DNA of 52,501 bases, taken from positions 1-52,501 of the forward strand of contig JAHJHP010000022.1 of assembly GCA_018823705.1 (NCBI GenBank), in the 5' to 3' direction. The position numbers and the translations under genes were made by a program. A model generated the notes under the pieces. It had not been told where the DNA came from. It saw only the letters and a list, made by a program, of their open reading frames with translations, and made no database searches. This document shows positions 26,544 to 41,048 of the stretch, one piece after another (position 1 is the first letter of the stretch; every line of letters begins with the position of its first letter). The DNA comes from Candidatus Omnitrophota bacterium (GTDB taxonomy: Bacteria > Omnitrophota > Gorgyraeia > 2-01-FULL-45-10).

Positions 26544-26575
26544 TTGACAGATTGTGTTGAATGAGTAATAATAAT
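26544..26575 (+). promoter_or_regulatory. Promoter of the corrinoid island
   Basis: A consensus TTGACA at 26544-26549 is followed 16-17 bases later by TAATAAT-type A/T sequence (26566-26575). The start point would fall just upstream of the riboswitch aptamer at 26583. The -10 position is ambiguous because TAATAATAAT repeats itself. Confidence 0.6.
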
Positions 26576-26582
26576 CGCATAT

Positions 26583-26758
26583 AGGTTAAGGGAAATCCGT
26601 AGGCCGGAAGGCCGTGGGGTGGTTTTAATAGCCAAGCCATGAAATCGGATGCGGTCCCGCCGCTGTAACCGGGGACGAAAGTCATAAAGGCCACTGCCGT
26701 ATTTATATGGCGGGAAGGCATGATGATTAGATTGATCCGGGAGCCAGAAGACCTGCCT
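26583..26758 (+). promoter_or_regulatory. Cobalamin riboswitch (long form)
   Basis: The region has the cobalamin-aptamer landmarks in order: GGTTAAGGGAAATCCG, GAAATCGGATGCGGTCCCGC, CGCTGTAACCGGGGACGAAA, GCCACTG, CGGGAAGG and the B12-box-like GAGCCAGAAGACCTGCC. The spacing matches adenosylcobalamin-type riboswitches. It precedes the peptide/radical SAM pair and the corrinoid salvage genes, and a terminator follows it, so ligand binding probably stops transcription. Confidence 0.95.
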
Positions 26759-26827
26759 ATATTTAAAGGTGGAGCGATCTTTAAATAACGCTCAAACCTC
26801 GCGGAAGGGTTAAGTAAATCAGGGTGC

Positions 26828-26869
26828 AACCCCGAGCATAGCGGAACTTCGCTATAGTCGGGGTTTTTT
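26828..26869 (+). terminator. Riboswitch expression platform: intrinsic terminator
   Basis: AACCCCGA pairs with TCGGGGTT around an inner stem ATAGCG/CGCTAT and is followed by six T residues. GGGTT at 26807-26811 can pair with AACCC at 26828-26832, the left base of the terminator stem, and would act as an antiterminator. This fits a switch in which B12-bound aptamer favours termination. The pairing was found by eye only. Confidence 0.82.
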
Positions 26870-26876
26870 ATTTTTC

Positions 26877-26916
26877 TTCGACATGCTCAGGAATAATAAC
26901 CGTGAGCGTGGCCGAA
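26877..26916. repeat. Imperfect palindrome between terminator and peptide gene
   Basis: TTCGACATGCTCAGG (26877-26891) and CCGTGAGCGTGGCCGAA (26900-26916) are imperfect inverted repeats around an A/T-rich loop. It lies in the leader between the riboswitch terminator and the peptide gene. It looks like another small dispersed palindrome; a role in the leader RNA is possible but unsupported. Confidence 0.45.
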
Positions 26917-26960
26917 GGGTTATTTTGCGGGAGCCATAACAACATAAGGGGGTGATTGAG

Positions 26961-27077
26961 GTGGAGAAAAAATCGCATAGAATAAAGAAGAGCGTTATTG
27001 CATGTCGTAAAAAGTGCAAAGTCAGCGGCGCAGGATTATCGCATTATGTTCTATTGGAAAAAGAGAAGAAATCGTAA
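26961..27077 (+). CDS. cbpA: Short Cys-containing peptide, candidate precursor for the adjacent radical SAM enzyme (CbpA-like)
   Basis: This 38-residue gene lies between the riboswitch and the radical SAM gene. The GTG at 26961 has AAGGGGG eight bases upstream; an in-frame GTG at 26952 would add three residues. The peptide is basic (starts MEKKSHRIKKSVIACRKKCK) with cysteines at 15 and 19, then a short VSGAGLSHYVLLEK tail. A small Cys/Gly/Ser peptide ahead of a SPASM radical SAM protein is the layout of RiPP precursors. I recall a database family of such peptides, CbpA, tied to cobalamin control, but could not search for it. Confidence 0.65.
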   Translation: MEKKSHRIKKSVIACRKKCKVSGAGLSHYVLLEKEKKS

Positions 27078-27098
27078 TGTGAAGAAATAATTATAGGT

Positions 27099-28478
27099 AT
27101 GAAAACTCAAGCTTATTTTAATACAGGTGAAGGGGATAGTCTTCAGCCAATAGACATTGGTCACAGGGACTATGCTTGTGTGGTTTCCGCTGATACGGCA
27201 TTCTGGGCGCTGGTAAGGAAGGATAGATTAGCCGGCGCCCGGAACGTCTCGTCGCTTTTAAATGCATATCGCATGAAAGCGAAGTCCTTCGCGGGCGAAA
27301 TCCATGCTTTGCGGTTTAAATTGAAGCCATCAGCCGTATATTTTAATCCTACGGACAGATGTAACCTCAATTGCTCTTATTGTTATATTCCTGAAAGCTT
27401 GCGTAAAAGCGGTACGCATATGTCCACCGCAAAGCTTTTGAAAGCGTTACAGACTCTCAAGAATTATTTTAAGTCCAGTCTTCCGCGAGAGCAAAAGCCT
27501 CAGATCATTTTTCATGGGGCCGAACCACTGCTTAATAAGCAAGCCGTTTTTACCGCGATAGATTGGTATAAGAAAGATTTTCGCTTTGGCGTTCAGACTA
27601 ACGGAACGCTATTGGATGATGATGCGTTGGAATTTCTGACCTCAAGGGGTATAAGCATAGGCCTTTCCCTGGATGGCCACACAGATATTATAGCCGATCG
27701 ATTGAGGCGGAATTGGAATGCTGAAGGCGTTTCCAGGAAAGTCACAGAGATTATTAGGCGACTCAAAGGGTATCATAATTATTCTGTCATCTGTACCGTA
27801 ACGCGTGAAAATATGTCGTCACAAGCTAAGATAGTCGAGCTTTTTCACCACATGGAAGTGCCGATTTGCATGCTCAATCCCGTTCGCTGTACACTCCCGG
27901 GCGGTTACAAGCAGAAGCCATCGGATGAAGAAGCCGCGGCACATTATATGAGTGCGCTGGATCGTGCTTATGAGCTTTATCGTAAGACCGGCCGTAAGCT
28001 GATAGTGGCGAATTTTGCTAATATTTTGATAAGTATTCTCGCGCCAACAGCCAGGCGGCTTATGTGCGATATCTCGCCATGCGGGGCCGGAAGGTGTTTC
28101 TTCGCGGTTTCGAGTAAAGGCGATATCTTCCCTTGCAGTGAATTCATCGGAGTAAAGAAGTTTAGGGGAGGCAATATTTTCAGAGAAGATATACGCGCAG
28201 TCCTAAAGACAGCGCCATTCAAAACTGTTACCGAAAGGCGTATTGAAGATATCGTACCCTGTTCGCGCTGCGCTATTCGTCATTTTTGCGGAGCACCATG
28301 TCCTGCCGAAGCGTGGACCATAAACGGTCGAATGGCTTCTCGGGGCGCATTCTGCAGGTTCTATGAAGAGCAGGTTCGATACGCGTTCAGATTGATCGCT
28401 GATAATAAGGAGGACGCGTACTTATGGGATGGATGGGATAAGGGCACGTTGACAACGTTCAATTCAAGAGGGAAATAG
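27099..28478 (+). CDS. cbpB: Radical SAM/SPASM peptide-modifying enzyme (CbpB-like)
   Basis: A 459-residue radical SAM protein. An 80-residue N-terminal region (which may engage the peptide) precedes the CNLNCSYCY cluster motif, with C88, C92 and C95 binding the SAM-cleaving 4Fe-4S cluster. FHGAEPLLN and VQTNGTLL follow, as in anaerobic sulfatase-maturase/peptide-maturase types. The C-terminal SPASM domain has many Cys (CDISPCGAGRC, FPCSEF, CSRCAIRHFCGAPC, FC), enough for two auxiliary clusters. It starts 21 bases after the small peptide gene and is first in the riboswitch-led operon. The modification it makes is unknown to me. Confidence 0.82.
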   Translation: MKTQAYFNTGEGDSLQPIDIGHRDYACVVSADTAFWALVRKDRLAGARNVSSLLNAYRMKAKSFAGEIHALRFKLKPSAVYFNPTDRCNLNCSYCYIPESLRKSGTHMSTAKLLKALQTLKNYFKSSLPREQKPQIIFHGAEPLLNKQAVFTAIDWYKKDFRFGVQTNGTLLDDDALEFLTSRGISIGLSLDGHTDIIADRLRRNWNAEGVSRKVTEIIRRLKGYHNYSVICTVTRENMSSQAKIVELFHHMEVPICMLNPVRCTLPGGYKQKPSDEEAAAHYMSALDRAYELYRKTGRKLIVANFANILISILAPTARRLMCDISPCGAGRCFFAVSSKGDIFPCSEFIGVKKFRGGNIFREDIRAVLKTAPFKTVTERRIEDIVPCSRCAIRHFCGAPCPAEAWTINGRMASRGAFCRFYEEQVRYAFRLIADNKEDAYLWDGWDKGTLTTFNSRGK

Positions 28479-28498: not shown

Positions 28499-29140
28499 AT
28501 GGTGAGACTCATCTTAATACGTCATGGCGTAACGGAATGGAATAGCGACAAGCGTTATTGTGGTAGTAGAGATATAGGTTTAAACGATGAAGGCAGGTCT
28601 CAGGTTAAGCTATTATCAGATAAACTTAATGCCCTCAGATTCGATAAAGTATATTACAGTCACAAAAAGCGCGCGATGCAGACCGCGCGAATACTTTTTA
28701 ATCAAGCAGGAATGATCCCAAGCCGGGGCTTGCGTGAAATCAGTTTCGGTATGATTGAAGGCCTGAAGCATGAGGAAGTCAGAAGGAAGCACGCTTCTGT
28801 ATATGAGAACTGGCTCAAGGACCCTTTCACTAACAATATTCCTCGGGCAGAGCCGATGAATAGTTTTAAAAATAGAGTCGAAAGATCCATGCGGAGTATT
28901 GTTCGATCAAATTCCGGTAAGACGATTGCCGTTGTATGTCATGGCGGAGTGATAGGCATATTTTTGGCCGGGATATTAAAAACAAGAGATTTTTGGCGGT
29001 GTGTACCGTCGCCGGCAAGCGTTACCGTGGTAGAACATAGGAAGGGTAAGCTCATATTAAAAAAATTCAACGATACGGCCCATCTAAAGGTGATCCCCGT
29101 TAGAAAGACGGGGCTTTCTAACGGGGTGAGCGATGAGTAA
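28499..29140 (+). CDS. cobC: Histidine phosphatase, probable alpha-ribazole phosphatase
   Basis: A 213-residue histidine-phosphatase-superfamily protein: LILIRHGVTEWN holds the phosphorylated His9, YYSHKKRAMQTARIL the Arg, and VVCHGGVIG the second His. Placed just before cobU, cobT and cobS, it most likely removes phosphate from alpha-ribazole phosphate or cobalamin phosphate. The last residues (IPVRKTGLSNGVSDE) are encoded by a palindromic repeat, so the natural C-terminus was probably altered by an insertion. Phosphoglycerate mutase is the alternative reading. Confidence 0.82.
   Translation: MVRLILIRHGVTEWNSDKRYCGSRDIGLNDEGRSQVKLLSDKLNALRFDKVYYSHKKRAMQTARILFNQAGMIPSRGLREISFGMIEGLKHEEVRRKHASVYENWLKDPFTNNIPRAEPMNSFKNRVERSMRSIVRSNSGKTIAVVCHGGVIGIFLAGILKTRDFWRCVPSPASVTVVEHRKGKLILKKFNDTAHLKVIPVRKTGLSNGVSDE
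29095..29126. repeat. Palindromic repeat inside the 3' end of cobC
   Basis: CCCCGTTAGAAAG (29095-29107) and CTTTCTAACGGGG (29114-29126) form a perfect 13-bp stem around ACGGGG. The core CCCGTTAGAAA/TTTCTAACGGG recurs at 35008-35062 at the start of the DUF71 gene. It lies in the coding sequence and supplies the last residues of CobC. Confidence 0.85.
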
Positions 29141-29654
29141 AATGATTTTTGTTTTCGGAGGCGCGCGAAGCGGCAAAAGCCGGTATGCTGTAGAGGCGGC
29201 AAAAAGATACGGAAAGAAGTCAGTATTTATTGCCACGGCCGCAGCGCTGGATGATGAGATGAGAGAAAGGATACGCCTTCATAAGATCTCGAGGCCAAAA
29301 GGATGGGGACTTATTGAGGAGCCAATGAATTTGAGCGATGCTGTCCTCGGATTGAAGGCGATATATGATGTGGCGGTCATTGATTGCGTGGGATTATGGG
29401 TATCCAATCTTTTAATGGCCAATATGAAAGACGGTGATATAGAGAAAAGAACTAAAAAATTGGCCACCAGTATCATTAAAGCTAAAATCAGTCGCGTTAT
29501 CATAGTATCTAATGAAGTGGGGGAAGGGATAGTTCCCGGCGATCCGTTATCCAGGAGGTTTCGTGATCTTGTCGGATCGGCAAATCAGGTAATGGCGGCG
29601 AAAGCAGATGAAGTTATCATGATGAAGGCAGGGATACCGATAATAATAAAATAG
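29133..29654 (+). CDS. cobU: Adenosylcobinamide kinase/adenosylcobinamide-phosphate guanylyltransferase
   Basis: CobU phosphorylates adenosylcobinamide and then activates it with GMP. The P-loop FGGARSGKSRYA is at residues 8-19 and IRLHKISRPKGW contains the family H-X3-RP motif with the guanylylated His. VIDCVGLWVSNLL and IVSNEVGEGIVPGDPLSRRFRDLVG are further CobU signatures. Normal length (173). It overlaps the end of cobC by 8 bases and precedes cobT. Confidence 0.95.
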   Translation: MSKMIFVFGGARSGKSRYAVEAAKRYGKKSVFIATAAALDDEMRERIRLHKISRPKGWGLIEEPMNLSDAVLGLKAIYDVAVIDCVGLWVSNLLMANMKDGDIEKRTKKLATSIIKAKISRVIIVSNEVGEGIVPGDPLSRRFRDLVGSANQVMAAKADEVIMMKAGIPIIIK

Positions 29655-29662
29655 GCGGATAT

Positions 29663-30718
29663 ATGAAATTATTGAATGAAACGATATCAAGAATCGGCAA
29701 AATAGACAATTCGTTATCAGGTGAAACTCAAGAAAGGCTCGACAATCTGACAAAGCCGCAGGGGAGCCTCGGAAGATTGGAAGAGTTAGCCAGGCAGATC
29801 GTAGAGATAACGAGGGCCAGGAACCCGGAGTTAAAGCACAAAATTATATTCACGATGGCCGGAGATCATGGCGTCGTTGAAAATAGCGTAAGCGCCTTTC
29901 CGCAGGAAGTGACTCCTCAGATGGTCTACAATTTTTTAAATGGCGGGGCGGGGATAAACGTTCTCGCACGGCACGTAGGCGCAAGGGTAGTTATCGTCGA
30001 TATGGGAGTTGCGTGTGATCTTAAAGATAATCCGGCGCTTGTGGTAAAGAAAGTTAATTACGGCACGAAGAACATGACAAAAGGACCCGCGATGTCGAAG
30101 GACGAGGCTATCAAGTCCATTGAAAATGGCATAGAGGCATTCAATGAAGCGTTGCCGGGCGGAATAGATATAGTCGGGACAGGGGATATGGGTATCGGTA
30201 ATACCACTCCTTCAAGCGCTATCGTTGCTACCATAGCCGGCCGGAATGTGGAAGAGGTGACGGGCAGAGGCACCGGGATAGATGACAAAACCTTATCCGG
30301 TAAGATCGCCGCTATCAAAGAAGCTTTGAAAGTAAATAAGCCGAACCCAAAGGACGGCATAGATATCCTGTCTAAGGTGGGCGGATTTGAAATAGGTGGC
30401 CTGGCAGGAGTAATGCTGGCTGCCGCGGCACACAGGATACCGATAGTGATAGACGGATTTATATCCGGGGCGGCTGCGCTAATAGCGTATACATTAGAAC
30501 CGAAAATTAAAGATTACATGATAGCTGCCCATTGCTCTGTCGAACAGGGCCATAAGGTGGCGCTCTCATTTTTAGGGCTTAAACCTATACTTGATCTAAA
30601 CTTAAGGCTGGGCGAGGGAACCGGCGCGGCATTAGCCATGAGCATAATAGAGGCCGGCACCAGGATATTAAATGAGATGGCGACGTTCGAAAGCGCCGGT
30701 GTTTCCGAGAAGGGCTAA
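29663..30718 (+). CDS. cobT: Nicotinate-nucleotide--dimethylbenzimidazole phosphoribosyltransferase
   Basis: CobT activates the lower-ligand base to alpha-ribazole phosphate. The 351-residue protein begins with LDNLTKPQGSLGRLEELA, has MAGDHGVVENSVSAFPQEVT, a GTGDMGIGNTTPSSAI loop and, near the C-terminus, LRLGEGTGAALAM with the catalytic Glu. Nine bases separate it from cobU and four from cobS. The base it activates (DMB or other) cannot be read from the sequence. Confidence 0.96.
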   Translation: MKLLNETISRIGKIDNSLSGETQERLDNLTKPQGSLGRLEELARQIVEITRARNPELKHKIIFTMAGDHGVVENSVSAFPQEVTPQMVYNFLNGGAGINVLARHVGARVVIVDMGVACDLKDNPALVVKKVNYGTKNMTKGPAMSKDEAIKSIENGIEAFNEALPGGIDIVGTGDMGIGNTTPSSAIVATIAGRNVEEVTGRGTGIDDKTLSGKIAAIKEALKVNKPNPKDGIDILSKVGGFEIGGLAGVMLAAAAHRIPIVIDGFISGAAALIAYTLEPKIKDYMIAAHCSVEQGHKVALSFLGLKPILDLNLRLGEGTGAALAMSIIEAGTRILNEMATFESAGVSEKG

Positions 30719-30721
30719 TAG

Positions 30722-31471
30722 ATGAACCCCAAAAGACTTCTAGTTGCTTTACAGTTCTTAACTATCATTCCTTTTAAAATTAAGGGAAAGGTCGAGGATA
30801 AAGATCTCGGGAGATCGCTTATTTACTTCCCGATAGTGGGCTTTTTAATAGGTCTTTTTCTGGCCGGCATAGCTTTTGTCTCATCGTCTCTGCCGCCGCT
30901 AATTATGAGCGTCTTAATACTGAGCGCATGGGTAATTATAACGGGAGGCATACATTTAGACGGGCTTGCGGATACCTGCGATGGTTTTTACGGAAACCGC
31001 CCCAAGGAAGATATTTTAAAGATAATGCGTGACAGTCGTATCGGGACCATGGGTGCCGCAGGCATTGCGCTCACTCTGCTCTTTAAATTCGCTATTCTCT
31101 CAAGCATACGTCCGGAATATCTATGGAAGGTTTTGATCATAGCGGTAGTATTTGCCAGATGGTCTCAAGCGTTCGCGTGCGTTACATCCAGATATGCGCG
31201 AGATGATGGCAAGGCAAAATATTTTATAGAATACGCGAAGAAGAGCGATGTCTTTACAGGGGCTGTATTTGCGCTGCTTCTAAGCTGGTTATTCATGGGC
31301 ATAGGAGGCGTGATCCTGTTTGTTATCATGTCGGTCGTGGTATTTATATTCATACAGTATGCCAAGAGAAAGATCGGCGGGATGACAGGAGACACGATAG
31401 GCGCTGCCAATGAAATTGCCGAGTCAGCCACGCTCTTATTCAGCTTAATATTAGCAGGTTATAAAATATGA
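30722..31471 (+). CDS. cobS: Adenosylcobinamide-GDP ribazoletransferase (cobalamin synthase)
   Basis: CobS joins adenosylcobinamide-GDP and alpha-ribazole (or its phosphate) in the membrane. It begins RLLVALQFLTIIPFK and contains the Mg-binding GGIHLDGLADTCDGF motif near residue 80, with several hydrophobic spans, and GDTIGAANEIAE near the C-terminus. Length (249) is typical. The stop overlaps the next gene by four bases. Confidence 0.95.
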   Translation: MNPKRLLVALQFLTIIPFKIKGKVEDKDLGRSLIYFPIVGFLIGLFLAGIAFVSSSLPPLIMSVLILSAWVIITGGIHLDGLADTCDGFYGNRPKEDILKIMRDSRIGTMGAAGIALTLLFKFAILSSIRPEYLWKVLIIAVVFARWSQAFACVTSRYARDDGKAKYFIEYAKKSDVFTGAVFALLLSWLFMGIGGVILFVIMSVVVFIFIQYAKRKIGGMTGDTIGAANEIAESATLLFSLILAGYKI

Positions 31472-32526
31472 TCGATCGAATTCATGGCGGGAATTGTTCA
31501 AGGCGGGATGTCATAGACTTCAGCGTGAATACAAATCCATTAGGTTTACCCGAAGGGCTGGCAGATATTATCTCGAGAAACGTTGATAGTATTCTTCACT
31601 ATCCGGATCCGTCTTCGGAAAGATTGAAGAGTAAGTTATCTATATTACACGGTGTAGCGCCGAAAAATCTCGCTATAGGTAATGGTTCCATAGAGCTCAT
31701 TTATCTTGTCCCCAGGGCTTTTAAAATAAAACAGCCGCTTATGATTACGCCGACATTCAGCGAATATGAATTTGCTGTCAGATCCAGTGGCTCGAGGCCC
31801 GTATTTTTCAATGCTTGCGAAAAAGATAACTTTAAGATCGATTGCGGTAAACTAGCGAAACATCTGCCGCGCTGCGACGCCTTATTCTTGTGTAACCCGA
31901 ATAATCCAACCGGCACTTTGCTGCATAGTGACGAGGTGTTGTATTTGTCGCGTCATGTAAAAAAGCATAGAGGCCTCTTGATACTCGATGAGGCGTTCAT
32001 CGAATTTACCGAACAGTCGAAAAGCGCAGCTGTCATATCGGAGGCCGTTAAAAACAAATCATTGGTTATCTTAAGGTCGATGACCAAATCCTTCTCTATA
32101 CCGGGCTTAAGGCTCGGATACGTTATAGGGCATAAAGAGATGATAGAAAAGATTGCGAGACTTCTATACCCATGGAATGTAAACGGCCCTGCGCAGCTTG
32201 CGGGCGAGAAAGCCTTAGCAGATAAAGATTATATGAAACGGACCCGGCTATTTGTAGCCAATGAACGGCGATACATGTCCGGGAGATTAAGCAGTATAAA
32301 AGGATTGAAAGTTTTTCAATCGTCAGCGAACTTTATTTTATGCAAGCTGCAGGATGCTCCGATAGTTAGCTCTCTCACGCTGACGCGTCGGTTATTGCGC
32401 GAAGGCGTCTATATCCGCGATTGCGGAAATTTCAGGGGATTAGGCGATAAGTTCTTTCGTGTAGCGGTAAGGAAGAGAGATGATAGCGATCGGTTGATAA
32501 AGAGCATCGGGAAGATATTTCAATGA
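31468..32526 (+). CDS. cobD: CobD-type threonine-phosphate decarboxylase (PLP aminotransferase fold)
   Basis: A 352-residue fold-type I PLP enzyme related to histidinol-phosphate aminotransferases. IHGGN near the N-terminus is characteristic of CobD, which makes aminopropanol phosphate for the nucleotide loop. FSVNTNPLGLP, FLCNPNNPTGTLL, ILDEAFIEF and SMTKSFSIPGLRLGY (Schiff-base Lys) follow. The position between cobS and cobQ strongly supports the corrinoid role over histidine synthesis. It overlaps both neighbours by four bases. Confidence 0.86.
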   Translation: MIDRIHGGNCSRRDVIDFSVNTNPLGLPEGLADIISRNVDSILHYPDPSSERLKSKLSILHGVAPKNLAIGNGSIELIYLVPRAFKIKQPLMITPTFSEYEFAVRSSGSRPVFFNACEKDNFKIDCGKLAKHLPRCDALFLCNPNNPTGTLLHSDEVLYLSRHVKKHRGLLILDEAFIEFTEQSKSAAVISEAVKNKSLVILRSMTKSFSIPGLRLGYVIGHKEMIEKIARLLYPWNVNGPAQLAGEKALADKDYMKRTRLFVANERRYMSGRLSSIKGLKVFQSSANFILCKLQDAPIVSSLTLTRRLLREGVYIRDCGNFRGLGDKFFRVAVRKRDDSDRLIKSIGKIFQ

Positions 32527-34049
32527 ACCGCGCAAAAACAGTGCATATCTGCGGAACAGGCTCAGGTGTAGGCAAGAGTGTTGTAGTTAGCGCCTTGTGC
32601 AGGATCTTTTTACAGGACGGATACAAAGTCTGCCCGTTCAAAGCGCAAAACATGGCTCTTAATTCTTTCGTTACCAAAGAAGGTGGTGAGATAGGCAGAG
32701 CTCAGGCTTTCCAGGCCGAGGCCTGCCGGATAGAGCCGCATGTTGACATGAACCCTATATTAATGAAACCTACCGCAGATAAGCATGCGCAGGTGATAGT
32801 TCACGGAAAGCCTATTGCGAATATGAGCGCCATTCGTTATATACGGCATAAGAAACGATTGTCTAGGGAGGTCTTTAGTTCTTTCGATAGGCTTTGCAAG
32901 AAATATGAATTGGTAGTTATGGAGGGCGCCGGAAGCCCCGCCGAGATAAATTTAAAAGCGCACGATATCGTTAACCTCAAAATGGCACATTACGCCGGCG
33001 CGCCTGTGATCTTAATCGGTGATATCGATAAAGGCGGCGTTTTTGCGTCGCTTGTAGGGACGCTGGAGCTACTGGACCGCGAAGAGAAAGAACAGATAAA
33101 AGGGTTTATAATCAATAAATTCAGGGGAGATATCAAGCTCCTTAAACCCGGTATAGATTTCCTGGAAAAAAGAACGGGCATAAAAGTCCTCGGGGTTATT
33201 CCGTACTTTCACCCATCGGGCCGCAGCGGCATAAAAATCTCAGAGGAAGACTCGGTGCCTCTGGATAATCATAAAAGTACCGATAGGCCCGCCCGTCGCA
33301 AGCTGAACGTAGATGTAATATATCTTCCGCATATCTCTAATTTTACCGATTTTGACGCGCTGGATAGGGAGCCGGATGTAAATTTGCGCTATATAAAAAG
33401 CCCTGAGGCATTAAACCGGCCGGATATTATTATAATTCCGGGGACGAAGAATACGGTAAATGACCTGCGATATATAAAGGAATCGGGATTCGCGAAAAAG
33501 ATAAGCAGCGTTATGAGAAAAGACGCATTACCTGTACTGATGGGGATATGCGGCGGGTTCCAGATGCTGGGGAAGAGGATACGCGATCCGCACCGAACCG
33601 AATCGTCTCAAAAAGAGACGAACGGACTGGGATTGCTGGAAATGGAGACGGTTTTTAGCAAAGTTAAGGTTCTTTCGCAAGTTAAAGCAGAAGAAGTATC
33701 CTCAGGGCTGGATGTATCAGGATATGAGATACATCATGGGAGATCGTGGAATAATGGAAAACATAGCCCGGCTTTCAACATAATAAAGCGAAGGGGAAGA
33801 GCTGTCCGGGATACTGACGGCATAATAGCGATGAACGGCAGGTTATTTGGAACATATATACATGGCATATTTGACGCAAATGCATTCAGAAGAAACTTTC
33901 TGAACAGAATACGATTAAGGAAGGGATGGGGCCCATTGCTTGATAAGGCCAGCTTCGATCCCGACCATGAGCTGGATAAGCTGGCCAGCTTTGTCCGTAA
34001 AAACATAGACATGAAATATCTCTATAATATAATAAAGGACGGAGGTTAA
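32523..34049 (+). CDS. cobQ: Cobyric acid synthase (CobQ/CbiP)
   Basis: CobQ amidates four side chains of adenosylcobyrinate a,c-diamide. The N-terminal ATPase domain opens VHICGTGSGVGKSVVVSALCRIF and has PFKAQNMALNSFV; VVMEGAGSPAEINLK is conserved in the family. The C-terminal glutamine amidotransferase domain shows IIPGTKNTVNDL and the nucleophile Cys in MGICGGFQMLG, with YEIHHGRS containing the His. Length (508) is normal. It overlaps cobD by four bases. Confidence 0.96.
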   Translation: MNRAKTVHICGTGSGVGKSVVVSALCRIFLQDGYKVCPFKAQNMALNSFVTKEGGEIGRAQAFQAEACRIEPHVDMNPILMKPTADKHAQVIVHGKPIANMSAIRYIRHKKRLSREVFSSFDRLCKKYELVVMEGAGSPAEINLKAHDIVNLKMAHYAGAPVILIGDIDKGGVFASLVGTLELLDREEKEQIKGFIINKFRGDIKLLKPGIDFLEKRTGIKVLGVIPYFHPSGRSGIKISEEDSVPLDNHKSTDRPARRKLNVDVIYLPHISNFTDFDALDREPDVNLRYIKSPEALNRPDIIIIPGTKNTVNDLRYIKESGFAKKISSVMRKDALPVLMGICGGFQMLGKRIRDPHRTESSQKETNGLGLLEMETVFSKVKVLSQVKAEEVSSGLDVSGYEIHHGRSWNNGKHSPAFNIIKRRGRAVRDTDGIIAMNGRLFGTYIHGIFDANAFRRNFLNRIRLRKGWGPLLDKASFDPDHELDKLASFVRKNIDMKYLYNIIKDGG

Positions 34050-34050
34050 G

Positions 34051-34989
34051 GTGCGGATCATTTGCATTCTCGGGGCATATCTGTTAGACCTTATTTTCGG
34101 CGATCCGCCTTCATTTCCGCATCCGGTAAGAGGTATCGGATGGTTTATAGGTAAATTGGAAGAGCCGTTCAGGTCTATCATTAAAAATGAGCGTATCGCC
34201 GGTACTTTTTTTGCCTGCACTGTAATAACTACGACATGGCTTATAACTTTTGCGATAACATATGCGGCAAATTCTTTTAATAATTATCTTGGCGCTGTTA
34301 TTTCGACCATCATCATTTATACTTCATTATCGGTAAAGGATCTGGGCGTCCAAAGTCTGGCGGTCTTCGACGCGTTAAACGAAGGTAATCTGAATAAAGC
34401 CAGGATGTTGCTTTCCAGAATAGTGGGGAGGGATACTGCAAATCTGGATGAGAGAGAAATTATAAGAGCCACAGTAGAGACAATCGCCGAGAATATCGTT
34501 GATGGTATAATATCGCCTATATTCTATGCCTTTCTGGGCGGCGCTCCTCTCGCTATGGCGTATAAGGCCGTCAATACCCTGGATTCTATGATCGGCCACA
34601 AAAATAAGCGGTATTTATATTTTGGCCGGGCTGCCGCGAAGATAGATGATATTGCGAATTTCATTCCTGCCAGGCTATCAGTAGTATTTTTGGCCATTGC
34701 AAGCTGGATCAGTAGCTATAATCCCATCAAGACATGGAGCATTGCAATACGTGATGGGCGACGGAATCCCAGTCCCAACAGCGGCTTGCCTGAGGCGGCG
34801 GTTGCCGGTGCCCTTGGAGTTCGGTTGGGGGGATTGAATTATTATGATTCGGCAGCGGTTCATAAATCGTATATAGGGGATGATAACAACCCTTTAACCA
34901 GATTACATATTAAAGAGGTTATTAAGATAGCTTACATTACATCTGCTTTATTTGTAATTTCAGGAACAGTTTTATTCTGGTTGATATGA
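34051..34989 (+). CDS. cbiB: Adenosylcobinamide-phosphate synthase (CbiB)
   Basis: CbiB attaches aminopropanol (phosphate) to cobyric acid, in the membrane. The GTG start at 34051 gives ICILGAYLLDLIFGDPPSFPHPVRGIGWFI, a CbiB signature; SRIVGRDTANLDEREIIRATVETIAENIVDGIISP and NTLDSMIGHKNKRYLYFGRAAAKIDD are also diagnostic. Several membrane spans are visible. Its stop overlaps the next ATG at 34986. Confidence 0.95.
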   Translation: MRIICILGAYLLDLIFGDPPSFPHPVRGIGWFIGKLEEPFRSIIKNERIAGTFFACTVITTTWLITFAITYAANSFNNYLGAVISTIIIYTSLSVKDLGVQSLAVFDALNEGNLNKARMLLSRIVGRDTANLDEREIIRATVETIAENIVDGIISPIFYAFLGGAPLAMAYKAVNTLDSMIGHKNKRYLYFGRAAAKIDDIANFIPARLSVVFLAIASWISSYNPIKTWSIAIRDGRRNPSPNSGLPEAAVAGALGVRLGGLNYYDSAAVHKSYIGDDNNPLTRLHIKEVIKIAYITSALFVISGTVLFWLI

Positions 34990-35708
34990 AAAGGAAGATT
35001 TTTATGAATCCCGTTAGAAATAGCGGATCTAAAAGATTGTGTTCAAAAATTTCTAACGGGATGAAGGTGATTTCCTTGTGGAGCGGTGGCAAGGATTGCT
35101 GCCTTGCGTGTTATAGGGCAAAAACTCAAGGCTATGATATTGTGAGTCTTCTTAATTTCACTACCCCTTTAGAGGAGAGTTCATTATCTCACGGGTTGAG
35201 TGCCCGGGTAATAGACCGCCAGGCTAAAATGACCGAAATACCTTCTTTCCAGAAGGCTATGCCGAAAGAAGGCTATCGCGATGAGTTCAAGAGCCTAATC
35301 GAGGAATGGAAAAGGACGAAAGGCATAGCAGGGATCATTTTCGGCGACATCTACCTCGAGGGCCATAAGGAGTGGATAGATAGCGTCTGCCGGGAACTCC
35401 AGGTAACTCCCGTTATGCCTATCTGGGCCAGGGATACAACCGGCCTCATGAACGAGTTCATAAGCCTCGGTTTTAAATCGATAATAGTCGCCACGCGAGT
35501 AGATAAGCTTGGCAAGGAGTGGCTTGGCCGCGAGATCGATGCTAACCTTATGAAAGAATTTGAGGGTATGGGTAACATAGATCCGTGCGGTGAAAACGGC
35601 GAATTCCATACGTTCGTTTATGACGGCCCGCTATTTAAGGAAAAGGTCAAGTTTAGCAAAGGTAACAAGATCCTGCGTCGCGGCCGATGGTTTTTGGAGG
35701 TTATGTAA
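34986..35708 (+). CDS. DUF71/COG2102 ATP pyrophosphatase, B12-associated subgroup
   Basis: A 240-residue PP-loop ATPase: KVISLWSGGKDCCLACYRA carries the SGGKD pyrophosphatase motif, and IFGDIYLEGHKEW and DPCGENGEFHTFVYDGP are DUF71 signatures shared with diphthine-ammonia ligase. Comparative genomics has proposed a B12-salvage subgroup of this family, and this copy sits among corrinoid genes, which fits. The first 25 residues (from MKRKIF) come largely from a palindromic repeat; the ATG at 35061 is the more natural start (215 residues). Confidence 0.8.
   Translation: MKRKIFMNPVRNSGSKRLCSKISNGMKVISLWSGGKDCCLACYRAKTQGYDIVSLLNFTTPLEESSLSHGLSARVIDRQAKMTEIPSFQKAMPKEGYRDEFKSLIEEWKRTKGIAGIIFGDIYLEGHKEWIDSVCRELQVTPVMPIWARDTTGLMNEFISLGFKSIIVATRVDKLGKEWLGREIDANLMKEFEGMGNIDPCGENGEFHTFVYDGPLFKEKVKFSKGNKILRRGRWFLEVM
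35008..35062. repeat. Palindromic repeat at the start of the DUF71 gene
   Basis: ATCCCGTTAGAAAT (35008-35021) and ATTTCTAACGGGAT (35049-35062) form a perfect 14-bp stem with a 27-base loop. Read in frame it gives NPVRNSGSKRLCSKISNG, a repeat-derived string that I associate with many unrelated metagenomic proteins. Its right arm ends on the likely original start codon at 35061. The core matches the palindrome at 29095-29126. Confidence 0.85.
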
Positions 35709-36580
35709 TGAGAAGATATCAGCTTCTTACCGTATCGATCCTTTTTACCGCAGCCGCGCTCCAGGCCTTGTCTGCCAACGATGTGTGCGCGTCGGAAAAT
35801 CATCCAAAGCGGATAATCTCTCTGGCGCCGTCGACGACCGAGGAGTTATATTTGCTGGGAGCGGGGGATAGGCTGGTCGGCGATACCACTTACTGCGTGA
35901 CTCCGCGGGCGGCGCGCTATAAAGAAAAAGTCGGCTCTTTGACTAAGGCGGATTTGGAGAAGATCGTAGTATTAAAACCCGACCTGGTACTGGCCACGTC
36001 TATTACAAATCCTAAAGCGATACAAAAGCTCAGAGACCTGGGAATAGAGGTAAGAATATTTCCGGCGCCAAAAACTTTTACCATTTTATGCGATCAATTT
36101 GTGGAATTAGGCATAGCTGTGGGGCAAGAGCTTCGGGCGCGGGAGATAGTTAAAGCGGCGGAAGAAAAAGTCGCCGATATTAAGGCCAGGACAGCCACGT
36201 TTGTTAAACCAAAAGTTTTCATCGAGATCGGAGCGAAGCCTCTCTTTACCGCTAACAGTGACTATATTATTAACGATTTTGTGAAGCTGGCCGGCGGAGA
36301 GAACATTGCTGAAAGCTCCAGCATCGGCAGTTACAGTAAGGAAGAGGTCTTGAGAAGAGATGCGGATGTGATACTGATCGTGACGATGGGTTTTGCGGGT
36401 GAGGCGGAGAGAGAAGCGTGGCGGAAGCTTAAAACGCTGAATGCCGTAAAGCACGATAGGATCTATATCATCAGTTCGCAGAAGATGTGCGGCCCTACCC
36501 CTGTGACTTTTGTCAAAAGCCTGGAAGAGATAAGCGTCCTGCTCCATCCGGAATTATCGGAGAAAAAAAGAGATGAGTAA
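35708..36580 (+). CDS. btuF: Corrinoid ABC transporter substrate-binding protein (BtuF-like)
   Basis: A periplasmic helical-backbone binding protein of 290 residues. The N-terminus MRRYQLLTVSILFTAAALQA is a signal peptide, with likely cleavage near residue 28. The BtuF-type fold is seen in KRIISLAPSTTEELYLLGAGDRLVGDT, IVVLKPDLVLA and LRDLGIEVRIFPAP. It starts in the previous stop codon (TAATG) and overlaps btuC. Vitamin B12 is the inferred ligand from context; iron-chelate binding proteins share the fold. Confidence 0.87.
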   Translation: MRRYQLLTVSILFTAAALQALSANDVCASENHPKRIISLAPSTTEELYLLGAGDRLVGDTTYCVTPRAARYKEKVGSLTKADLEKIVVLKPDLVLATSITNPKAIQKLRDLGIEVRIFPAPKTFTILCDQFVELGIAVGQELRAREIVKAAEEKVADIKARTATFVKPKVFIEIGAKPLFTANSDYIINDFVKLAGGENIAESSSIGSYSKEEVLRRDADVILIVTMGFAGEAEREAWRKLKTLNAVKHDRIYIISSQKMCGPTPVTFVKSLEEISVLLHPELSEKKRDE

Positions 36581-37583
36581 TAGAGCGATGCCCCGGACAG
36601 TACGGGTAATAATGTTAGGAGGAGCGCTTCTACTGATAGCGGCAATGTCATTATGTCTGGGCCCCACCGCTCTATCAGTCAAAAGATCAGTGCATGCTAT
36701 TATCTCCGGCCATAATACTACGGAATATAGCATTCTTTTTGACATTCGCCTGCCGCGTATCATTCTGGGGTTTGCCATCGGTGGCGCGTTGAGCCTGGCC
36801 GGCGTTATTCTGCAGGGGCTCTTTCGAAATCCGCTGGTCGAACCCTATACGATGGGTATCTCCGGCGGCGCGGCGCTGGGAGTCAGCCTGGCGATTGTCC
36901 TAAAATTATATCGGTCGATGGGATTACTGACACTGCCGTTTGCAGGTTTCATCGGTGCGGCTATTGTTATTTCGATGATATACTTTATTAACATCAGAAA
37001 GAAGACATTAAAGATACAGAGCCTGCTCTTGACCGGCGTTATGATAAGCTTCATATCATCGTCTTTTATAATGCTTATTATGGCCGTTTCCCGCACGGAG
37101 GACCTGCATGGTATTATCTTCTGGATAATGGGTTCATTGGAAGAGCCGAGCTGGTTTCTTATTAAAGTAATGCTCGTTACGTCTTTAGCAGGGTTGGCTT
37201 TGTCATATATTTTTTGGAAGGATCTGAACGCGTTACGTCTGGGAGAAGAGGAAGCCACGCACCTAGGCATAAATACTGAAAGAGCGAAAAGAGCGCTCTT
37301 TGTGCTGGCATCGATCCTTACCGGATGCGCTGTTTCCGTAGGAGGGATCATCGGGTTTGTCGGCCTGATCATTCCACATCTCGTGCGTATGTTTATAGGC
37401 TCTGATCATAGAGCTCTTCTGGTGGGATCATTTTTAGGCGGAGCGTCTTTTCTGATCTTCTGCGATACCGTGGCCAGGATAATTGTCGCGCCTTCCGAGC
37501 TGCCGGTCGGTGTAATTACCGGCATATTGGGGGGAAGCTTTTTTATTTACGCGTTAACTAAGAAAGGAAAGTCTGTTGTTTGA
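36573..37583 (+). CDS. btuC: Corrinoid ABC transporter permease (BtuC/FecCD family)
   Basis: A 336-residue FecCD-family permease with about ten membrane spans. FDIRLPRIILGFAIGGALSLAG, FRNPLVEPYTMGISGGAALG and the C-terminal GGIIGFVGLIIPHLVRMFIGSDHR (ATPase-coupling helix) are family signatures. It overlaps btuF and btuD by 8 bases each, so the transporter is translated as a unit. Substrate is inferred from the surrounding corrinoid genes. Confidence 0.91.
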   Translation: MSNRAMPRTVRVIMLGGALLLIAAMSLCLGPTALSVKRSVHAIISGHNTTEYSILFDIRLPRIILGFAIGGALSLAGVILQGLFRNPLVEPYTMGISGGAALGVSLAIVLKLYRSMGLLTLPFAGFIGAAIVISMIYFINIRKKTLKIQSLLLTGVMISFISSSFIMLIMAVSRTEDLHGIIFWIMGSLEEPSWFLIKVMLVTSLAGLALSYIFWKDLNALRLGEEEATHLGINTERAKRALFVLASILTGCAVSVGGIIGFVGLIIPHLVRMFIGSDHRALLVGSFLGGASFLIFCDTVARIIVAPSELPVGVITGILGGSFFIYALTKKGKSVV

Positions 37584-38376
37584 AATAAGGGACCTGACAT
37601 GCGGTTACGAAGAGAGATTTCATCTTAAAGGTGTAGATCTCGCGATCAAAGAAGGCGGTTTCTTTGGGATAATAGGCCCGAACGGATCCGGCAAAACAAC
37701 GCTTTTGCGGGCCATGACCCGTATCCTGAGGCCGGGAAAAGGAGAGGTGCTCCTTCGGGGGAAGAATATATGGCACATAGGTCTTGGGGAGCTGGCCAGA
37801 ACTATATCGGTTGTTTCTCAAAACGTATCTACCGATGATCTCAATGTGGGCGAATTTGTCCTTCTCTCGAGAATACCTCACTACAGAGGCCTTCAGTTTC
37901 TGGAGACGAAACACGATGAAGAGATCGCCGACAACGCGATGATATTGACCGACACCCTTAAGTTTAAGGATAGGGCTATGTCAGAGATATCGGGCGGCGA
38001 AAGGCAGCTTGTCCTGATCGCGCGTGCTCTGGCGCAAGAGCCGAAATATCTTCTTCTGGATGAACCCACATCGCATCTTGACATAACGCATCAGGTTCGC
38101 GTTCTCGATCTATTGAAAAGGTTAAACAGAGAATTATCCCTTACCGTGATCATAGTCCTGCATGACCTTAACCTTGCCAGCGAATATTGCGACAGGGTGG
38201 CGCTTTTGTCCGGAGGCGCCGTATACAAAGAAGGTTCGCCGCAGGACGTCCTGGATTATAAAACCATCGAAGATGTTTACAAAACAGTAGTCGTTGTGGA
38301 AAAGAACCCGATATCCTTAAAACCATATATCATTCTTATCTCGGAAGAAGAAAGGCGAAAGGTGCGTAAAAAATGA
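37576..38376 (+). CDS. btuD: Corrinoid ABC transporter ATP-binding protein (BtuD-like)
   Basis: A 266-residue ABC ATPase. The TTG start at 37576 lies in the end of btuC. Walker A is GPNGSGKTT, the signature SGGERQLVLIARALAQEPKYLLLDEPTSHLDI combines the LSGGQ-type motif, Walker B and D-loop, and the switch His is in VLHDLNLA. It completes the BtuFCD-type importer. Its stop overlaps cobO by four bases. Confidence 0.93.
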   Translation: MFEIRDLTCGYEERFHLKGVDLAIKEGGFFGIIGPNGSGKTTLLRAMTRILRPGKGEVLLRGKNIWHIGLGELARTISVVSQNVSTDDLNVGEFVLLSRIPHYRGLQFLETKHDEEIADNAMILTDTLKFKDRAMSEISGGERQLVLIARALAQEPKYLLLDEPTSHLDITHQVRVLDLLKRLNRELSLTVIIVLHDLNLASEYCDRVALLSGGAVYKEGSPQDVLDYKTIEDVYKTVVVVEKNPISLKPYIILISEEERRKVRKK

Positions 38377-38903
38377 CGCGAAAAGGTTTAATTCATATCT
38401 ATACAGGTGACGGTAAGGGAAAAACCACGGCGGCGATCGGCCTGGCCATAAGAGCCGTGGGGCACGGTTTTAAAGTCGCTTACATATATTTTCATAAGGA
38501 CCCGAAGCGGTGGGGTTATGGAGAACATAAGGTTCTAAGAACGATCGGCGTGGATGTTTTTGGTTTTGCCAGGAGACACCCGCATTTTTATAAGAAATTA
38601 AATCCGGATGAAGTTCGAAAAGAGTGCTTAAAAGGGATGCGATTTATCGAATCGCTCTATAAGAATAACAAATACAATATGATCATCCTGGATGAATTAA
38701 TGATTTCCCTACGAGACGGTTTTTTAAAAAAAGAGGAAGTTATGAATATAATGAAAACAAAGCCCAGGGGCCTGGAGCTCGTGCTGACAGGCCGGGGCGC
38801 GAAAAGGGGGGTGGTCAGATGCGCTGATCTTGTGAGTAAAATAGAAAAAATCAAACACCCGTACGATTCAGGGGTACAAAGACGAGTCGGTATTGAGTAT
38901 TAA
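38373..38903 (+). CDS. cobO: Corrinoid adenosyltransferase (CobO/BtuR/CobA type)
   Basis: This enzyme adds the 5'-deoxyadenosyl ligand to corrinoids. GLIHIYTGDGKGKTTAAIGLAIRA holds the P-loop of the BtuR family, and NMIILDELMISLRDGFL and LVLTGRGA are conserved. At 176 residues the length is normal. It is the last gene before the second riboswitch and follows the importer, so imported corrinoid is adenosylated at once. Confidence 0.94.
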   Translation: MTRKGLIHIYTGDGKGKTTAAIGLAIRAVGHGFKVAYIYFHKDPKRWGYGEHKVLRTIGVDVFGFARRHPHFYKKLNPDEVRKECLKGMRFIESLYKNNKYNMIILDELMISLRDGFLKKEEVMNIMKTKPRGLELVLTGRGAKRGVVRCADLVSKIEKIKHPYDSGVQRRVGIEY

Positions 38904-39044: not shown

Positions 39045-41048
39045 ATGAAAACGAAATATATTTTTGTATTATTATTTATTCTGGTAACGAACGGCATGGC
39101 ACATGCCGAAGATAATTCATCCGCTTCAACTGCTACGCGTCTCGAGCCTATAGTAGTAACTTCATCCAGGGTAGAAAAAGGTTTATCGGCTGTTGCCGCC
39201 AGCGTGAGCGTTGTCACAGAAGAAGAAATAAAAAGGTCTGACGCTAAAACTGTCCCGGATGCTCTCAAGGATCTGCAGGGCATATATGCGTATGATGCCA
39301 CCGGTGTGGGCGCGGGGGGAACATTAAATATGCGCGGTTTTTATGGCGGAATGTCGAGTCATCAACTTGTCTTAGTGGACGGGATACCCCAAAATAAGGG
39401 CAAGGATAAGCTGGTGAACTGGGATCTGATACCCATCAATAATATCGAACGCATAGAAGTTATGAGAGGGCCCGCCTCGAGCCTTTATGGCGATAACGCC
39501 ATGTCGGGTGTGATCAATATAATAACTAAAAAACCGAGCAGCGCCCCGCATGCCGGCGTCTTTTTTTCATACGGCACTTACGCTACGCAGAATTACGCTT
39601 CATATTTCTCGGGGGAATTTAATAGTCTCGGGTATTACATGGGCGTAAGCAGCAGGCTGACGAACGGATTTCGCGAACATGGCGATTATGAAAATATACA
39701 AGCCTATGGCAAGATCGATTATTCAATAAACGACGAGCATAATTTAAAGTTAAATTTCGATTATAGCGTTAAAACTCAAGGGGCATTCCCGTGGTCGTTG
39801 TCGGCGGCCCAGATTGCGCAAAACAGGCGTCAGGCCAGGCCCGGAGCAGAGAACGATTCCACCGGCGCGGATAAGTTCTCGATGGACCTTACCCATAACT
39901 GGGGTCTCGGATCATCCTCTAATCTCGAAACGATATTCTATTATAGGTTTGACGGGATGGAATCATTTTATACCAGAGGCGCGTCGCAAAATACCACCAG
40001 AGAACAGATTGAAGCCGAAAATACGTTTGGCTTACCCGTTCGCTTAAAGACAGTGTCGGAAATCCTGGGTATGAACCATTCGTTTGTTATTGGTACCGAC
40101 CTCGAGCGAAACGACTTCGATTACGAACAGAATAACGCGCCATTTCAAAATAGGCGTGGCGCACCAACTGCCAGCTACGCTGTCGTGAAAAGCATGGTAG
40201 GGCCATATCTTCAGGATGAGATCAGGGTTTTAGAAGCCCTGAAGGTTATTTGTGGCGTGCGTTATGATTGGATAAAGTTTAATTTTGATGATAGGAGGCT
40301 ACCATCAAATTCTAAAAACAAACTGATGTCGAAAGTAACGCCTAGTTGTGGTGTGGTGTGGGCCTATCAGAAAGATTCCGAATTGTATGGAAACATTGGC
40401 CGGGCTTTTCGATCTCCTACCATAGGCCAGATGTTTACTTATGGGAGCTCCGCGAACATAAATCTATTACCCGAAGAAGCCATAAACTATGAGATAGGTG
40501 TGCGTCATCGCTTTAATGAGCGCCTCAAGACAAGTGTAAGCGTCTATTGGATGAAGGTAAGTAACGAGATATGGTATGATAACGCCAGCAGACAGTATCA
40601 AAATTATGGCAGGACGTTTCACGATGGAATGGAATTGAGCGCTGATTTTAAAGTCGCGGACCCCCTGACAATCTTCGGTAATTATACATACACAAGAGCC
40701 GTGGATGATAGCGATGGCGTTTTGAAGAATAAATTCCTGGTCAATGTTCCGATTAATAAGGGGACTATAGGGATGAACATATATACGGAGCTTGGCTTTA
40801 AGGCCTATGTGGCATCAACGTGGGTGGGAAAGGCATACATAGATTCGGCTAATGTTGATGTGTTGGGGCATTATAATACGTTAGACGCGAAGATATCATA
40901 TAAATATAAATGGCTTGAGGCGTTTGTTGCCGCATATAATATATTTGATAAAGAGTATAATTCTTCCGGATATAAGAGCGCGAGGATAAACTACTTTACT
41001 CCTGAGCCCGGGAGAACATTCGAGGTTGGGGTAAGCGGCGAGTTTTAA
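39045..41048 (+). CDS. btuB: TonB-dependent outer-membrane receptor, BtuB-like
   Basis: This 667-residue receptor has a signal peptide (residues 1-21, ending MAHA), a TonB box-like LEPIVVTSSR segment, and a plug domain with VPDALKDLQGIY, NMRGF, LVLVDGIPQNKG, IERIEVMRGPASSLYGDNAMSGVINIITKKP. The long C-terminal region of alternating residues is the beta-barrel, ending in FEVGVSGEF with the terminal Phe typical of barrel proteins. Riboswitch control and location identify corrinoids as the probable cargo. AGGAGG-like sequence lies just upstream. Confidence 0.92.
   Translation: MKTKYIFVLLFILVTNGMAHAEDNSSASTATRLEPIVVTSSRVEKGLSAVAASVSVVTEEEIKRSDAKTVPDALKDLQGIYAYDATGVGAGGTLNMRGFYGGMSSHQLVLVDGIPQNKGKDKLVNWDLIPINNIERIEVMRGPASSLYGDNAMSGVINIITKKPSSAPHAGVFFSYGTYATQNYASYFSGEFNSLGYYMGVSSRLTNGFREHGDYENIQAYGKIDYSINDEHNLKLNFDYSVKTQGAFPWSLSAAQIAQNRRQARPGAENDSTGADKFSMDLTHNWGLGSSSNLETIFYYRFDGMESFYTRGASQNTTREQIEAENTFGLPVRLKTVSEILGMNHSFVIGTDLERNDFDYEQNNAPFQNRRGAPTASYAVVKSMVGPYLQDEIRVLEALKVICGVRYDWIKFNFDDRRLPSNSKNKLMSKVTPSCGVVWAYQKDSELYGNIGRAFRSPTIGQMFTYGSSANINLLPEEAINYEIGVRHRFNERLKTSVSVYWMKVSNEIWYDNASRQYQNYGRTFHDGMELSADFKVADPLTIFGNYTYTRAVDDSDGVLKNKFLVNVPINKGTIGMNIYTELGFKAYVASTWVGKAYIDSANVDVLGHYNTLDAKISYKYKWLEAFVAAYNIFDKEYNSSGYKSARINYFTPEPGRTFEVGVSGEF

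Follow-up and report, generated by a model that had tools for sequence, protein, structure and literature searches.

The stretch of DNA analysed here (the window, 52.5 kb in length) makes up contig C13 of a genome that is 1.7 Mb in size and 99% complete. Positions 26544–28478 hold, in the order and at the coordinates given by an original prediction made from the letters of the DNA, a promoter match, a cobalamin riboswitch, a terminator and two genes, cbpA and cbpB; these elements and the window genes described below lie on the plus strand. The sigma-70-like promoter (26544–26572, TTGACA-17-AATAAT) is present as predicted with 11 of 12 consensus positions, but it is a consensus match only, and a similar number of such sites arises by chance in shuffled sequence. 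The cobalamin riboswitch aptamer (RF00174, 26566–26774) is complete and, at 99.8 bits (E = 7.9e-24), far exceeds the gathering score of 31.5 bits, so that the operon behind it classifies as cobalamin riboswitch-controlled; it was the sole Rfam match across the whole window. Between the riboswitch and cbpA lies an intrinsic terminator (26828–26870), composed of a stem at 26828–26865 with a folding energy of −23.6 kcal/mol and a following T-run. Cobalamin riboswitches usually turn genes off with B12 bound, and this terminator is the expected off-switch in that state.

A ribosome-binding site recognised from its sequence (AAGGGGGTGA, 26946–26955) precedes cbpA (26961–27077), which encodes a precursor peptide of 38 aa with a GTG start, a pI of about 10 and cysteines at positions 15 and 19. 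The GTG start is supported by a relative (L035) that has ATG at the same place. The stop codon of cbpA is separated by 21 bases from the ATG of cbpB (27099–28478), encoding a predicted peptide-modifying radical SAM/SPASM enzyme of 459 aa. Riboswitch, terminator, the basic peptide with its two cysteines and its spacing to the enzyme gene were all found as originally described. Taken together, the parts of this locus are not a chance arrangement.

The genes 3′ of cbpB serve cobamide salvage and transport. A cobC-like gene for an alpha-ribazole phosphatase of the histidine phosphatase family (28499–29140, under the TIGR03162 cut-off) is followed by cobU (29133–29654, NF004469), cobT (29663–30718, TIGR03160), cobS (30722–31471, TIGR00317), cobD for threonine-phosphate decarboxylase (31468–32526, TIGR01140), cobQ for cobyric acid synthase (32523–34049, NF001989) and cbiB (34051–34989, TIGR00380). 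Further downstream are a gene for a Dph6-like ATP pyrophosphatase (34986–35708, below cut-off), which is recurrent in these clusters, genes for a corrinoid ABC transporter of the btuF-btuC-btuD type (35687–38376), where the BtuF-like match is below cut-off and BtuC and BtuD are assigned from sequence and operon context only, cobA for corrinoid adenosyltransferase (38373–38903, just under the cut-offs) and a gene with a profile match to TonB-dependent receptors, likely for corrinoid uptake (39045–41048). The top score of this receptor is of the siderophore type, and its match to B12 receptors is only partial. In relatives, a Dph6-like gene beside cbpB or the cobamide genes was seen in 10 of 80, 6 of 12 and 5 of 20 loci of three locus sets. 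A second ORF of about 240–280 aa lies 3′ of cbpB near the Dph6-like gene in L068 (12027–12749), L070 (3505–4254), L071 (5644–6369) and L072 (5210–6061); that of L068 resembles radical SAM proteins weakly, under the cut-off, and radical SAM matches occurred in 5 of the 43 downstream ORFs scanned. No second ORF of this kind was seen in the window cluster.

The family names CbpA and CbpB, given in the original prediction, proved correct. The peptide matches the NCBIfam model CbpA (TIGR04164) over residues 12–36 (VIACRKKCKVSGAGLSHYVLLEKEK), its conserved core, with 37.2 bits at a cut-off of 35, and the enzyme matches CbpB (TIGR04163) over residues 15–442 with 683.4 bits at a cut-off of 375. The gene order is that of the relatives, the closest of which belong to the Omnitrophota, and no difference specific to the window was seen. 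Judged by sequence, the pair is a further member of this named NCBIfam family and almost certainly represents a CbpA/CbpB system.

CbpB gave Pfam matches over cut-off to PF04055 and PF13186, and it contains both a CxxxCxxC motif and the SPASM pattern Cx9-15Gx4C...Cx2Cx5Cx3C...C. The radical SAM cysteines C88, C92 and C95, as well as the cysteine-rich SPASM end, had been read from the window at the outset; the three radical SAM cysteines and the SPASM cysteines C328, C346, C388, C391, C397, C401 and C419 are invariant in 41 sequences, including the Chlorobi enzyme. As to an N-terminal RRE (PqqD-like) domain like that of RRE-containing RiPP enzymes, which CbpB may have, Pfam gave no PqqD match, and an AlphaFold2 model of CbpB (mean pLDDT 87) places three strands and two helices ahead of residue 75. 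Among solved structures the SCIFF maturase CteB (PDB 5wgg, 5why) was the best match in sequence and fold, with about 21% identity and an alignment of near whole length (ranges not given). CteB makes a Cys thioether in SCIFF, whose precursors by family definition have six cysteines, whereas CbpA has one that is conserved. The second-best fold match was anSME (PDB 4k36–4k39), likewise a radical SAM enzyme with SPASM clusters, but anSME modifies sulfatases rather than a short precursor peptide, and CbpB is below the anSME cut-off (TIGR03942). The nearest other NCBIfam model describes the PapB-type ranthipeptide maturases (NF047865, 142.7 bits, below the cut-off of 340), which share the radical SAM and SPASM architecture; PapA has several Cys-containing repeats, in contrast to the single conserved and losable Cys of the CbpA core. 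Next came the dynobactin maturase DynA (NF041298, 128.5 bits, far below the cut-off of 450), which forms His-Tyr and Trp-Asn links in an antibiotic product. The precursors are unrelated, but the His-Tyr link of DynA hints at what the conserved His and aromatic residue of CbpA might form. The modelled fold and the profile neighbours of CbpB fit peptide modification, but they do not single out a type of bond.

The comparison with other genomes was based on 33 Omnitrophota matches and on 80 loci obtained by scanning genome representatives. These 80 loci span Omnitrophota, Nitrospirota, Chloroflexota, Bacillota, Verrucomicrobiota, Planctomycetota, Thermodesulfobacteriota, Myxococcota, Chlorobiota, Pseudomonadota and others; one viral scan returned no viral relatives. 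In the CbpB tree two well-supported clades were observed, clade A, which holds the window enzyme, and clade B, so far found only in Omnitrophota and about 40% identical to the window CbpB. Clade B enzymes pass the CbpB cut-off, and four clade B peptides tested scored 12.6–23.7 bits and therefore stay below the CbpA cut-off of 35. Of 20 clade B loci, 19 lie amid cobamide genes, and in 16 the cluster is headed by a cobalamin riboswitch.

The original prediction had expected peptide, enzyme and riboswitch to occur together, with a conserved small peptide upstream of the enzyme homologues. Indeed, cbpA lies immediately 5′ of cbpB in all 76 of the 80 loci that have enough upstream sequence, and a cobalamin riboswitch is located directly upstream in 50 of the 72 loci with enough sequence for this assignment. 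Riboswitches were searched in the same genomes with Infernal (RF00174), mapped to the loci and verified by a nucleotide profile; mapping by coordinates only had given coincidences (L119 and the second matches of L120, L129 and L144), and L119 was dropped after the profile re-check. Five further loci have a riboswitch 4.7–8.6 kb upstream on the same strand, and in several clusters cbpA-cbpB is far from the riboswitch. About a third of the group A loci are without a directly adjacent riboswitch, most of these being within cobamide clusters. Stand-alone units of riboswitch, cbpA and cbpB with no contiguous gene behind them were found at roughly two dozen loci, a count that, like the tallies of downstream genes, comes from simple ORF calling without a gene finder. 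B12 regulation of the pair is therefore more than a by-product of lying in a cobamide operon, and the presence of such units in other phyla strengthens the earlier claim that the pair is not an incidental neighbour. In four loci (L096, L106, L107 and L108) two cobalamin riboswitches are arranged back to back on opposite strands upstream of cbpB, one facing cbpA-cbpB and the other a cobamide gene cluster.

The window genome has one copy of cbpA. CbpA matches occurred in 18 Omnitrophota genomes, always as a single copy, by which orphan copies elsewhere in these genomes were ruled out; no CbpA was found in 14 control genomes. Counted from Cys19 as position 0, R(−3), G(+6), L(+7), H(+9) and an aromatic residue at +10 are conserved throughout. 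The always-kept motif consequently consists of Arg at −3 and G-L-[S/A]-H-[Y/F], with S(+8) replaced by Ala in L070 and L081; in the window the core reads R16-K-K-C19-...-G25-L26-S27-H28-Y29. Over a dozen phyla share this core in near-constant form, whereas antimicrobial peptides diversify. Two Gammaproteobacteria have tandem two-core precursors, suggesting that the core is a functional module.

The original prediction had pointed to Cys15 and Cys19 and, for SPASM proteins next to tiny peptides, to thioether or other crosslinks; of the expected conservation of the two cysteines, that of Cys15 failed and that of Cys19 was weakened. Position −4, occupied by Cys15 in the window, is not conserved and mostly Tyr in relatives. 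Cys19 is nearly universal, but two Chlorobi genomes (L139 and L147) have Lys at its position and a single Omnitrophota genome (G262, locus L060) has Gly, the latter on one metagenome-assembled contig, so that this Gly could be an error. These exceptions were found by eye in loci missed by the core search pattern, which required Cys and Ser after Gly-Leu. As some members carry Lys or Gly in place of Cys19, a Cys thioether cannot be the sole product of the family, and a donor Cys in every core, by which sactipeptides and ranthipeptides are recognised, is not found. A Cys15–Cys19 crosslink as the shared product was rejected on the same two positions. The window peptide itself keeps Cys19, and a thioether in this peptide is possible from its sequence. 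The branch of the Chlorobi enzyme (L139/L147), where the peptide Cys became Lys, is unusually long (0.71), which may point to a change of chemistry.

At the genome level, CobS was present in 28 of 28 near-complete CbpB-positive Omnitrophota genomes, compared to 90 of the 252 Omnitrophota genomes covered by both the CbpB and the CobS scans (Fisher p about 1e-14, a value that is optimistic because these genomes are related). One exception was seen outside the 252, a genome with 5% contamination (G534) in which CbpA was present and CobS was undetected. CbiC was found in 38 of 68 carriers. Among the 28 CbpB-positive Omnitrophota, 18 are without CbiC, the window genome included, and corrin ring synthesis therefore seems to be absent from these 18. 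Five carriers (G071, G034, G205, G139 and G338) have neither CbiC nor CbiM, which fits corrinoid handling better than cobalt scavenging; the cobalt alternative of the original prediction is accordingly disfavoured, and corrinoid handling fits all carriers, with or without CbiC. The window genome has a CbiM match, which may be a nickel transporter. It also has 19 matches to the B12-binding domain, 18 of them over cut-off, on contigs C14, C17, C23, C32, C94 and others, mostly in open frames of about 470–550 aa that are possibly B12-dependent radical SAM enzymes. This suggests heavy B12 use in the window organism despite the absence of CbiC.

The account that we favour, and to which we give somewhat less than even weight as a whole, is that of a B12-switched CbpA/CbpB system whose modified peptide serves corrinoid handling. 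When adenosylcobalamin is plentiful, it would bind the riboswitch and the terminator would halt transcription; at low supply, the operon would be transcribed and the small basic peptide CbpA would be made. Expression of cbpA-cbpB at low B12 is very likely, given the established behaviour of such riboswitches. CbpB would then generate a 5′-deoxyadenosyl radical and modify the conserved CbpA core, and that CbpA is the substrate of CbpB we regard as highly probable. The modification would most likely be an intramolecular crosslink, at a site that we infer: most likely, the step that every member shares takes place on the G-L-[S/A]-H-[Y/F] segment, and Cys19 may participate in most lineages, not in all. 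The product is probably intracellular and might aid the capture, holding or delivery of corrinoid, alongside the salvage enzymes and transporters encoded nearby. The corrinoid-handling role of CbpA is proposed tentatively. What weighs against the favoured account is that neither a protease nor an exporter for maturation was found linked to the pair, that two lineages have lost the Cys, that some group A loci have no adjacent riboswitch, and that the contaminated genome G534 has CbpA with no CobS detected. A more specific version would make modified CbpA a gene-encoded chaperone or carrier of corrinoids on which over a dozen phyla rely when B12 runs short, its essential modification being a Cys-independent crosslink within GL[S/A]H[Y/F]; this version is conceivable and for now doubtful.

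Modified CbpA could instead be a cobalt ligand, a metallophore or cobalt chaperone that feeds cobalt to corrin synthesis. In some other phyla CbiM, CbiX, CbiK, CbiQ and NicO are encoded 3′ of cbpB, and metal binding through Cys, His and Tyr is plausible; nevertheless, this is unlikely in view of the 18 CbpB-positive Omnitrophota without CbiC, five of which are also without CbiM, of the replaceable core Cys and of the neighbouring genes, among which no exporter is linked to the pair. PqqA and MftA are precursors of PQQ and mycofactocin, and B12-independent isozymes are among the known targets of cobalamin riboswitches. CbpA might accordingly be the precursor of a small redox cofactor for an enzyme that replaces a B12-dependent one when B12 is scarce, and its constant core across phyla, its single copy per genome and a distant match of the CbpB model to PqqE are in line with this. 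However, no partner enzyme recurs beside cbpA-cbpB, where the neighbours are corrinoid and cobalt genes, and most of the core is constant, not merely one or two residues, which makes a cofactor precursor rather improbable.

The almost invariant core across phyla, and the locus neighbours, among which no transporter, protease or immunity gene recurs, leave little room for a RiPP that is exported as an antimicrobial or a signal and is simply produced when B12 is limiting. RiPPs of this kind are frequent products of SPASM enzymes (reviews PMC5682303 and PMC8326336), but we consider this explanation very unlikely here. Least probable of all is that the cbpA ORF is a leader or attenuator and that CbpB acts on another substrate. 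The ORF is short and basic and lies between a terminator and an enzyme gene, as this explanation would have it, yet its invariance at the amino-acid level over many phyla, the one copy per genome, the two-core duplications and the clusters in which the pair is far from the riboswitch speak against it.

No paper on the product or function of CbpA/CbpB was found in a literature search that covered the subscription literature in part, and nothing in the same search described the peptides of clade B, the variants without Cys, the precursors with two cores or the stand-alone units. What is added to the known CbpA/CbpB family thus lies at the family level, with clade B peptides that fall under the CbpA cut-off, peptides without Cys, and precursors with two cores. 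The conserved CbpA residues name the sites to mutate, and the natural Cys-to-Lys variant of the Chlorobi makes it possible to tell a thioether from another kind of chemistry. The extent of the module follows from the two-core precursors, and the stand-alone riboswitch units offer a clean system for testing expression and deletion. If the favoured account of a B12-switched system for corrinoid handling is true, B12 physiology would gain a new component in this B12-controlled pair, which has a near-fixed motif and occurs in over a dozen phyla.
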